A stretch of DNA of 64,000 nucleotides from Polytrichum commune (taxonomy: Eukaryota > Streptophyta > Polytrichopsida > Polytrichales > Polytrichaceae): NCBI GenBank assembly GCA_950295325.1, contig OX485809.1:19096001-19160000 (forward strand). Reading direction: 5' to 3'. This document shows positions 37,311-40,924 of the stretch, in pieces (the stretch's first letter is position 1; every line of letters starts with the position of its first letter). Position numbers and translations under genes: made by a program. The notes beneath the pieces were generated by a model. That model saw only the letters and a list, made by a program, of their open reading frames with translations, was not told the origin of the DNA and ran no database searches.

Positions 37311-37350
37311 CTTAGGGGGTTCCAACCAGTGTTGGACCAATATCAAAATT

Positions 37351-37552
37351 TTGCGATACCAACCTAGTACCAATATCAGATATTTATGAAATTTCAGCCG
37401 GGTTGGATCCCAAGTATCACAAGAATCGTATTTTTATAGATATGGTATGAGTATGAGTATGAGTATCAATCTTGTGAAAATAAAGCGTATAGGTATCAAT
37501 ATTGAGTATCATGATAGTGATACCAGTGGAGTATGCACAATGGTATGGTATT
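37351..37552. promoter_or_regulatory. Left subterminal GTATC/GGTAT motif cluster of the hAT element
   Basis: Many copies of GATACC, GTATC and GGTATGAG occur between 37354 and 37547, including GGTATGAGTATGAGTATG at 37445. Short motifs repeated near both ends are typical hAT transposase binding sites. The role is inferred from the family. Confidence 0.6.
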
Positions 37553-37849
37553 GTATTGTTTTACCTTTTTACCTTTTTCCTTTTAGAGACCTATTTTCCA
37601 CTTCAAAATCAAGGTGTCGAATAAAACAAAAATCACTTGAATGTACTTGCAGTCAAGTAGAAAATACAAAAAATCACGAAGATTGCAAGGAAGAATCGAA
37701 TGAAAACATGATGGTTGATTAAGAATGAATTGCATGGTTATGAAAATATATAGTATGATGGTTTACAAAAAATTGCCTTTGGTGGTAGATTGTGATGCAC
37801 ATCATGATAGACCAAAGAGGAAATCATAACACAACAATCACCATGCACT

Positions 37850-40507
37850 CTAATTCTCAAAATATCCTGCCTCCTCTAGCTCATCCTCATGGTCATCAAG
37901 GATCTCATGCGTTTTGTTGAGAAATTCCACCACATTTGTAGAAGCCACCTCACATTCACTTCTCGCATCTGTAGGCCAATTCTTATAAATCATGATAAGA
38001 CCATTCACATTCGAAAGACCAAGGCGGCAACGGCGCAAACTTGTGAGAACTCCGGCAACACTGAAGATCCTCTCCGTCTCAATTTGAGAACCAGGGATAC
38101 CAAGAAATTGCCGTGCCAAATATGCAAGAGTTGGAAACCGAGTAGCATTTGCCTTCCACCATGCCAATGGTGAGGCTGCCTCAACCGGAATTTGTAGCCG
38201 TCGAAATAAAGAAACTTCAGCGACAAGGGTGCCCTCACAAGCTTCCTCCGGAGAAGCTGCATCTCCAAACAAAATAGAAGACAGAGGGGGTTCTTCAACA
38301 CGTGTAGCTATTCCACCAGGATGCAACAATTTGTGCACCTACAAAAAAAATTAAGCACAATTTTATTAGCTAGCACATATGAATCATGGAAACCTATTAA
38401 TAAACATTTATAAAACATTCACAATATCCTGAACCAATTGAGTCAACTCATAAAACCAATAATAAATTACAACTGTCATGCAATCAGCTCCCATAGAAGC
38501 CAAGAATGGCACAAAATCCACCCTTATCCTCACCATTCACCCACAACATCAAATGGCCGAACATCTACCTACACAAACAGTCAACTATAGTGAACTACAC
38601 AAGATTGCAAAAGAATTGCACAAAATTGCAAAAGAATTTGGACATCGTACCTTCACTAAATAAGGAATGAGCACCTTCTGATCGTACTCGCGTACAATTG
38701 CCCGAGCTTTCTCAACTCCTGTGTATGCAATCACACATTCCAGGCCCTTGAAGCGGGGATCTACCATCAACACAATCATGTTGTGAGCATTTTCTGATGT
38801 GAATGTGTGGGTGAATGACAGAAAAGGCTTCATGACAAGCATCGCCTCCAAAGACATCTTCGCCCTCAAAATCTCGAGCTCGGCATCAAAATCGCCGTGT
38901 TGAAGCGGAGGGTTCATGTTGCTGACATGGTCGATATGGGCACGAAGCTCCACTGAAATCGCCAATGCTGCTGCCAGGGCATCCGACAACAACCAGTAGC
39001 CCCTTGTCTGATTCAGAACACATTGCTTCACAACCGGATTCAGAGTTTCGGTGACTGTTCGAGCCACTGCCCAAGTTACCCCAGTTGGCACTCGTGCTTG
39101 CAGTTTCAGAGACTGAGCTGCATAGCAAATATTGATTGCATCAGCGTACTCTAAGGTTTCTTGGAAGAGAATAACCTTCGAAGCAAAACGAGTTTTCACC
39201 GGCGTTCTCAACTTCCTCGCTGGTAATCCAGCCTTGATGTAGGCTTTCCTCCATTCCGCCCCTCCCTTTCCTGATTTCTTTGTCCACGTAATACACGACT
39301 GCAATGCACTTTGAGCAGATCTCAATGACAATTCTGTCATATCCCTACAAACTTTGTCATCATCTGTAGCATATTGACAGGCTTTGGACATGACATGTCC
39401 GAAACAAGCTCCAGCATAAGGTTGCTCAATGTCCAGTACATCGCATGAGACCGTGAGCTGCAATGCGCGCTCAAGTGTAGTCAAATTAGAACCCTCATCC
39501 TTGACCCAAGCAATTATTTTTTTTGTCAACTGGAATTCATCTAGCAGAGGTTTAACTATTTCAGCAATAGCAAGACCAGAAGTATCATGGGCCTCAAATA
39601 AACCAACTGTCACATGCCGCGGTTCCCAACAATCATCGATAAAGTTAACAACCAACGCAAAAGTGTCGAAGCCAGCTCTCGACATCCACAAATCAAAAGT
39701 AATCGACGCCGTCGCACAGCTCGCGATTGCAGGAAGCACATATCGCTCCATGGTCTTCGAAAGCAGTGCAGGGATGTGCTCATGCACAAGCGCCTTCCGA
39801 GTTGGAAACTTCACCTTTGGATCTCGCCGCATCACCAATCGGCGCAGCCAAGGGCTCTCCACCACCGCCAATGTCTCATAACCCTTAGCAATGAAAAGCA
39901 CAAGGTCCTCAAGAAAGTGTTTTTGTTGAACATCACCTTTATGATACGATTTCTGTCCGGCGAAAAATTCTGTGATGGCCGAAGGCTGCACAGCTTTCCT
40001 CTTCTTCGTCTTTTGGCGCGCTGCCTCCGACTCCTCCAACACTGTTACCTTATACCTCTGAAATTCCGTTGAGTGCTCATTCATCACGTGATTCTTCATG
40101 CTTGTCAACCCGTGCAGAGGATTATATTGCAAGACACCCTTTCGCTGGCGTGTCGCACTCCGCGAACTAGAAGAAGACGTCGCATTGGTAGGGTGACAGA
40201 TTGTGCACTTCATCACCTGGATTGCTTTGACGTCAACTTCTGCACCTGGCTCATTCAGTTTGAAGAAGGCCCACACCAAAGATTGTCGGTGATAAGGTGC
40301 CCAAAAATTCCGGTTGGTTGTCAATGCGATGAGAAGAACCTGCCACGCAGCCTCGAACTCTGAAGCCACTTCATTTGACAATGTTGGCACTGCATTCACA
40401 GTCTCTGTGCAATCTGAATCAATCAGATTCACTGTGTTATTAGAGAACCCAACATCCATACATTGATTCACAGCAACTTCCATTGACGCACGTTGTGAAC
40501 CAGACAT
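37850..40507 (-). CDS. hAT transposase with BED zinc finger (two exons)
   Basis: Exon 1 covers 40507-38651 (619 codons) and exon 2 covers 38338-37850 (162 codons plus stop), joined in phase 0 for 781 residues. Visible parts in order: a BED-type zinc finger with C101, C104, H140 and H145; a Ser-rich linker and basic KTKKRK patch; an RNase H-fold catalytic core with D272 in TFDLWMS and D337 in WVKDEGSN; the family's CxxH pair at 368-371; VDPRFKGLE at 582-590; and a C-terminal hAT dimerisation domain, roughly 675-741, with PLAWWKANATRFPTLAYLA and GSQIETERIFSVAG. The third catalytic acidic residue (Glu) should lie in the helical insertion, but I cannot assign it. The ATG at 40507 has A at -3. The protein would act in the nucleus on the element's own ends. 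Length fits autonomous plant hAT transposases. Confidence 0.93.
38339..38650 (-). other. Intron of the hAT transposase
   Basis: A 312-base intron with donor AAG|GTACGA at 38651/38650 and acceptor TTTTTTTTGTAG|GTGCAC at 38339/38338. Without splicing, exon 1 runs 20 codons into the intron and stops at 38585, losing the dimerisation domain. Splicing joins VLIPYLVK to VHKLLHPG in frame. Confidence 0.85.
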
Positions 40508-40735
40508 TTTGCAACCCTAAATGAAGCTTGAAATGCACATAAAAACACAAGCAACAATCCAACAGAATTGCATAAGGAGTGTAAGACATCAAACAAAATG
40601 CATGCCTGCCTCATTGAAGCCAAGAATCTGGAGTTGTTGAACTGAAATTTGGAATCATAAAGTGCAATGCCGCCGATTTGAAGAGCATTCAAGCAGACAG
40701 GTTTCAGGCTTCTCGACAGACGCGAAGGCGGGGGT

Positions 40736-40910
40736 GAGTATCGGCCGCCACCTCCGACCTCGGGTATCGAAGGCGGGTATCGAAGGCGGGTACCTTGCAG
40801 TACAGGTACGACACAGGTATCGCCCCATCTACATACTGCGGGCAATCTGGTACTTAATACCATACTCATACCAATACTCTATACCAGGCAAATGGTGCTA
40901 TACCGGTCCA
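40736..40910. promoter_or_regulatory. Right subterminal GTATC/GGTAT motif cluster of the hAT element
   Basis: Repeats include GGGTATCGAAGGC twice in tandem at about 40763, CAGGTATCGCC at 40816 and ATACC words up to 40903. They mirror the left end. The region is also the upstream side of the transposase gene, so it probably overlaps its promoter and 5' leader. No TATA box could be fixed. Confidence 0.6.
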
Positions 40911-40924
40911 ACACTGGTTCCAAC

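Follow-up and report, generated by a model that had tools for sequence, protein, structure and literature searches.

The 64,000-nucleotide stretch of the moss Polytrichum commune analyzed here (contig OX485809.1, positions 19,096,001 to 19,160,000; hereafter, the window) very probably contains a complete cut-and-paste (class II) transposon of the hAT superfamily, which was inserted into the nuclear genome no more than roughly a few hundred thousand years ago and carries a two-exon gene for a 781-residue transposase. The element is an ordinary hAT transposon and a new member of the superfamily; more interesting are the branch-specific introns found in it and its relatives, whose distribution indicates, with good support, that introns have been gained repeatedly in this hAT clade. 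The features of the element are listed below by window position.

37319..37326 (no strand): left target-site duplication, GTTCCAAC, read from the sequence
37327..40916 (minus strand, that of the transposase): hAT element, 3,590 bp, from the sequence and comparison of copies
37327..37338 (no strand): terminal inverted repeat (TIR), CAGTGTTGGACC, at the 3' end of the transposase gene
37327..37566 (no strand): subterminal region rich in GTATC/GGTAT, candidate transposase-binding repeats
37850..38338 (minus strand): transposase exon 2, 162 codons plus stop, from the joined frame and spliced alignment
37979..38209 (minus strand): hAT C-terminal dimerization domain PF05699, exon 2 residues 44-120, Pfam E value 1.8e-14
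38072..38074 (minus strand): Glu708 of TERIFS, putative third catalytic acid, by motif
38339..38650 (minus strand): predicted 312-bp GT-AG intron, phase 0, between residues 619 and 620, in the window family only
38651..40507 (minus strand): transposase exon 1, 619 codons, from the joined frame and spliced alignment
39395..39406 (minus strand): CFGH motif, residues 368-371, kept in all eight relatives listed
39497..39499 (minus strand): Asp337 of VKDEGSN, putative second catalytic acid, by motif
39692..39694 (minus strand): Asp272 of TFDLWMS, putative first catalytic acid, by motif
40073..40207 (minus strand): C-x2-C ... H-x4-H, residues 101-145, putative divergent BED-like zinc finger (a motif with no Pfam match)
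40677..40916 (no strand): second GTATC/GGTAT subterminal region
40905..40916 (no strand): TIR, GGTCCAACACTG, at the 5' end of the transposase gene
40917..40924 (no strand): right target-site duplication, GTTCCAAC, read from the sequence

Structure of the element and its transposase gene

The element lies on C7 of the 408-Mb genome. An initial annotation, made from the sequence alone, had described a perfect 8-bp duplication and terminal repeats identical in 12 of 12 bases, and both were found exactly so, with the short TIR that characterizes the hAT superfamily. The same annotation had set the element apart from decayed neighbors, and it does stand out, since exon 1 is the only stop-to-stop open reading frame of at least 180 amino acids in the 64-kb window. 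In the subterminal 240 bp of both ends, there were 10 GTATC (1.4 expected) and 13 GGTAT (1.9 expected), counts that were each reached in 0 of 2,000 simulations for motifs chosen post hoc, after the ends had been read. Three further end motifs were reached in 0 (GAGTATC), 38 (GGTAC), and 34 (TATCAA) of 2,000 simulations. This enrichment is as expected of subterminal binding repeats, for which the motifs are candidates; Ac likewise has subterminal repeats near its ends. By analogy with Hermes and Ac, the 781-residue transposase would bind the GGTAT/GTATC repeats of the subterminal regions as well as the 12-bp ends, would then excise the element, and would join it to a staggered cut, leaving an 8-bp duplication of about the form nTnnnnAn.

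The 619-codon and 162-codon exons, the clean GT-AG boundaries of the predicted intron, and the absence of stops and frameshifts claimed earlier were confirmed in the joined frame. The predicted intron begins with GT at 38650-38649 and ends with AG at 38340-38339, the joined exons give 781 codons whose single stop is the final codon, and the spliced aligner, run with the 781-residue protein, returned the identical single 312-bp intron.

Three domains had been proposed for the protein, and of these the dimerization domain was matched by a profile: exon 2 hit Pfam Dimer_Tnp_hAT (PF05699) at 53.7 bits (E value, 1.8e-14; cutoff, 21.4 bits), as expected of a hAT C-terminal (hATC) domain, and its residues 50-117 aligned to the dimerization domain of Hermes, the house fly hAT transposase (PDB 6dww, 4d1q, 2bw3, and 8edg; E value, 1e-8). 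Exon 1 and its relatives gave no credible Pfam or PDB match, so the BED finger and the catalytic core stand as conserved motifs. Exon 1 likewise had no sequence match to Hermes, which is also shorter (612 residues in 8edg versus 781). The two Cys and two His residues of the putative zinc finger were all kept in six of eight relatives; one Cys is missing in L011, and nothing in L035 aligned to the Cys motif. In the FDLW, VKDEG, and TERIFS motifs, both Asp residues were kept in all eight relatives and the Glu in seven (L036 has a Lys). By motif, Asp272, Asp337, and Glu708 are putative catalytic acids of an RNase H-like core, and the roles given to the other motifs are likewise putative.

When set beside Ac/Ds and DAYSLEEPER by description, the window transposase shares with them the hATC domain and, by motif, a putative BED-like C2H2 finger. 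According to the available portion of PMC3499209, all SLEEPERs carry both features, and no SLEEPER gene was found in moss. DAYSLEEPER is a domesticated plant hAT gene, whereas the window element is mobile and lies in a moss. Separately, one relative at 46% identity, L034 (G000:C6:13742300-13746300), has IEDEDSK in place of VKDEGSN at the second Asp motif, and its matched parts are free of stops on either side of a 655-bp intron; it is possibly a domesticated transposase gene.

Copies, mobility, and age

The genome contained nine copies of the window family, including the window copy. Eight copies had both ends, and these were flanked by eight different perfect duplications of 8 bp, the length characteristic of hAT elements; the ninth (L009/L010) was recovered with a single end. 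Seven of the eight duplications fit nTnnnnAn, the exception being GAAGTGAC. The target duplication of Hermes is likewise 8 bp long and follows the same pattern. The search for near-identical copies that the initial annotation had proposed yielded L002 and L001, which differ from the window copy by 9 substitutions in 3,571 sites (0.25%) and 16 substitutions in 3,584 sites (0.45%), respectively; pairwise, the three young copies are separated by 9, 15, and 16 substitutions over about 3.57 kb. With two other full copies at such low divergence, the window insertion is young, in agreement with the recent insertion claimed. Plant substitution rates are 7-9e-9 per site and year, which places the divergence of the window copy, L001, and L002 at roughly 0.14-0.32 million years.

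The copy on C1 (L002, at G000:C1:39.487 Mb) is inserted in a high-copy repeat. When its flanks were joined, 37 of the 44 matches listed continued across the joint, and all six repeats that were fetched had one uninterrupted GCCCTAAC, whereas the filled site has GTCCTAAC twice; the duplication at this copy therefore arose from a single copy. Because the perfect target duplications differ among copies and L002 has paralogous empty sites, the window family has transposed. The only matches to the ends in a search for short nonautonomous derivatives were the nine copies themselves (8 and 9 matches, with very common words skipped).

Two side observations concern the distribution of these sequences. 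The repeat flanking L002, together with L022-L027, is a very high-copy short repeat that by eye resembles a short interspersed nuclear element, with 2,144 first-look candidates and listed matches on all seven large contigs. C4, which makes up about 14% of the genome, holds six of the nine window-family copies, including four in the interval from 45 to 55.1 Mb. In addition, the synonymous divergence (dS) between the window copy and L003-L005 (0.23-0.26) was more than three times the whole-element divergence of 0.07 (window copy versus L003-L006). A chimeric origin was considered for this difference and rejected, as no breakpoint was found along the element.

A second, sister family (L028-L031, L020, and L021) had at least six copies, 56-71% identical to the window family by exon in a protein search in which 71 of 279 candidates were scored; four aligned copies had 65% protein identity to the window family. 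The sister element is 5,814 bp long, and the first 11 bases of its TIR, CAGTGTTGGACTG, are the same as those of the window family. The four copies that were read to their ends had the 8-bp duplications GTTAGCTC, GTGTATAC, GTGTAAAC, and GTAGTAAC. Two of these copies, L029 and L030 (G000:C5:33.13 and 33.18 Mb), are identical base for base over 5,814 bp. They are separated by about 47 kb, point in opposite directions, and have different duplications and flanks, which indicates transposition, and this transposition was probably local and very recent. The sister family has thus moved more recently than the window family. Five of its six copies had no stop in the matched exons, and L029 and L030 are better candidates than the window copy for current activity.

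Intactness and possible autonomy of the window copy

The window copy was the only one of the nine whose reading frame is intact. In L001 there are three stops, two of which are CGA-to-TGA changes, L002 has one frameshift, and the older window-family copies have at least two defects each. The ratio of nonsynonymous to synonymous divergence (dN/dS) between the window copy and older copies was 0.16 (L003), 0.17 (L004), 0.11 (L005), 0.23 (L007), and 0.28 (L008), whereas it was 0.74 between the decayed copies L007 and L008. These values show past purifying selection on the transposase lineage. Among the three young copies, the ratio ranged from 0.60 to 2.09, with too few changes to judge.

Several points weigh against the main reading of the element. 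One Glu codon retained in the seven other aligned copies is missing from the window copy, whose protein also has the substitutions C423Y and E762T at positions that are 92% and 90% conserved among the rows compared; its transposase may therefore be impaired. Exon 1, as noted above, has no credible profile match. The search for the window copy's own empty site found none among 40 scored of 2,144 candidates, a result that is uninformative either way: matches to the L002 repeat overwhelmed the search, so that it is no evidence of absence, and the flanks of L001 were unlisted even at their own locus.

The foremost alternative, which we regard as plausible though not probable, is that the window copy is structurally complete and no longer autonomous, its transposase having been weakened by recent changes and its movement being one that another copy provided, or would provide, in trans. 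The Glu loss is unique to the window copy among the aligned copies, C423Y and E762T are absent from L001 and L002 and rare among relatives, the two sister copies L001 and L002 are both broken, and the sister family, with nearly identical ends, is younger and has open copies. However, the frame of the window copy is fully open and its predicted splice sites are correct, the changed residues all lie outside the conserved motifs listed, and Tyr423 is also present in L004, an old copy, as is Thr762 in L043. We infer that the window copy may still encode a working protein. An open frame and past purifying selection would also fit a hAT transposase gene that the host has domesticated, but the perfect ends and duplication, the copies at several sites, the broken near-identical copies, and the divergence of 0.25-0.45% mark a mobile family and no conserved locus, which makes domestication very improbable. 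Segmental duplication or assembly error as the source of the near-identical copies, for which no point was found in favor, is scarcely credible, given that each of the eight complete copies has a duplication and flanks of its own and that the C1 copy has paralogous empty sites.

Branch-specific introns

Intron positions were taken from spliced alignments of 30 copies and are given as residue numbers. The window intron, at position 620, was found in the window family only and was absent in all 20 relatives beyond the family whose alignment covers the site (L045, which ends before residue 620, is outside this count). The predicted splice joins GTGAAG|GTGCACAA (14 bases), and the same 14 bases run uninterrupted as GTGAAGGTGCACAA in L012, L013, L037, L038, L030, and L028. 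These relatives, uninterrupted at 620, provide good evidence for the exon junction predicted in the initial annotation.

The other introns were distributed as follows: positions 151 and 376 in L028-L031 of the sister family, which has no intron at 620, with a short altered 376 alone in L038; position 537 in at least four copies, L012, L013, L037, and L052; positions 57 and 453 in L039-L041; position 450 in L042-L044 and L047; position 386 in L034; and positions 196 and 331 in L035. L011 and L036 had none of these introns. AG|GT sites occurred at eight of the ten positions, the exceptions being 57 and 450. Some of these assignments involved a choice: L003 (617) and L008 (612) were assigned to 620 on account of a mutated acceptor, L005 was scored as having the intron because it begins there and its remainder is in L006, and L038 was scored as present at 376 despite a short insert without AG. 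Aligner calls in L004 (229; an insert of 2,147 bp that lacks end repeats), L036 (438), L042 (187), and L046 (372 and 525) were discounted as introns. The exons flanking intron 537 were open in L012 and had one stop in L013 (by tblastn), one frameshift in L037, and three stops in L052; the spliced aligner can bypass a stop by treating it as an inserted codon, which makes its stop counts too low for some copies, L013 among them.

A tree of 24 rows was built with IQ-TREE. Near-copies and a fragment (L001, L002, L009, L028, L029, and L031) were omitted, L045 fell below the length limit, and L052 was added. On this tree, nine positions, including 620, required one change each and position 450 required two. 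Each of the ten positions is limited to one branch, and for seven of them gain is clearly simpler than loss.

The contrary possibility, that these are old introns of a hAT ancestor lost in different branches, appears improbable. Presence of all positions at the root would need 42 losses, with five to seven each for 620, 376, 151, and 537 and four each for 57, 450, and 453, compared with single changes at nine positions, and the 23-bp exon copies at both ends of two introns (see below) are not a product of loss. In favor of loss, positions 386 (L034) and 196 and 331 (L035) could each be explained by just one or two losses on the rooting used; they lie on deep single branches, which are weak and on which the tree cannot separate gain from loss. 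Position 450 changes twice even without assumed presence at the root. Loss also prevailed in CACTA transposases, for which the available portion of PMC4158355 describes mostly intron loss with one putative gain; that source also cites intron gain in grass Mariner-like elements.

Structure and possible origin of the introns

Intron 537 of L012 and L013 and intron 196 of L035 have perfect 23-bp copies of exon sequence at both ends. Shorter end repeats were found for 537 of L037 (13 bp), 453 (9-10 bp), 376 (7 bp), and 151 (9 bp, with one mismatch). For introns 620, 386, and 331, the end repeat consists only of AGGT(T), and in the window intron only of AGGT; introns 57 and 450 had no end repeat beyond the splice signals. 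A weaker similarity between the ends of the window intron was no better than chance (reached by 152 of 1,000 shuffles), and this intron has no exon repeat of the kind seen in neointrons from break repair. Its internal 14-bp direct repeat was reached by 4 of 500 shuffles. Overall, for six of eight introns no more than 7 of 500 shuffles matched the internal direct repeats, and those of the other two (134 and 655 bp) were unremarkable.

The interiors of the introns in L012 (1645-2801), L013, and L035 (260-2000) partly match other loci. At position 537, the ends and a 57-bp core are common to L012/L013 and L037/L052, while the interiors differ; the L012 interior matches C2:18.996 Mb (84%) and C1:22.528 Mb (86%). 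The interior of intron 196 matches, among others, C5:12.078 Mb (91%) and C1:56.13 Mb (88-94%). The interior of intron 151 had no match outside its six copies, and a donor search for that of intron 620 gave no match outside the window family. The element's own gene was examined as a source of filler and rejected, since in seven introns and the L038 insert the longest match was never above the best of 30 shuffles; an uncontrolled comparison showed a 12-base match between the L038 insert and L011.

The 23-bp exon duplications and patchwork interiors of two introns suggest gain by break repair. As the window intron has no end repeats, its mechanism is inferred from its relatives. L035 is represented by one locus, and the 1,741-bp insert there might be an insertion that is not spliced. 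One scenario, offered tentatively and in our judgment rather unlikely, is that this hAT clade makes spliceosomal introns as it moves. Excision of a hAT element would leave a gap repaired by copying; faulty repair could then place foreign DNA in the transposase gene, and only those insertions that can be spliced out would leave a working element able to spread, so that each branch would come to have introns of its own. That the element's own excision repair was the cause is a guess.

New introns in Daphnia offer a parallel: the available portion of PMC4202315 describes some introns flanked by direct repeats of exon sequence and many with direct repeats inside them, and ascribes introns of this type to repair of staggered breaks. 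The Daphnia end repeats are 4-12 bp long and most sources are unknown, whereas two of the hAT introns have 23-bp repeats and their interiors partly match other loci. The moss genes also differ in that they are transposases. A limited literature search turned up no account of hAT transposases gaining introns repeatedly or of hAT activity in mosses.

Host genome and significance

Contigs C1-C7 hold about 406 of the 408 Mb, so that a haploid number of seven is probable, which fits Polytrichaceae; the plastid genes psaA and psaB are on C8. Among PDB entries, the LEAFY homolog is nearest to 4bhk and PsaA to 8htu and 6l35, which are Physcomitrella structures, in keeping with a host that is almost certainly a moss. 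No tRNA genes were found in the window by ARAGORN (bacterial code). Genome-wide, there were at least 150 hAT dimerization domains (150 scored of 1,060 first-look candidates), several of them in open frames of 800-1,084 amino acids. hAT elements are, judging by these domains, common in this moss genome, and at least two families have recently moved. This richness contrasts with Physcomitrella, in which extensive searches yielded no hAT sequence, according to the available portion of PMC6027215. If one of the moss hAT elements proves active, it could be used to mutagenize mosses. How new introns originate is still debated, and such a multicopy gene family, being young, is suited to testing it: its value would lie in the repeated, position-specific gains, in the relatives that retain the state before insertion, and in filler DNA that is partly traceable.

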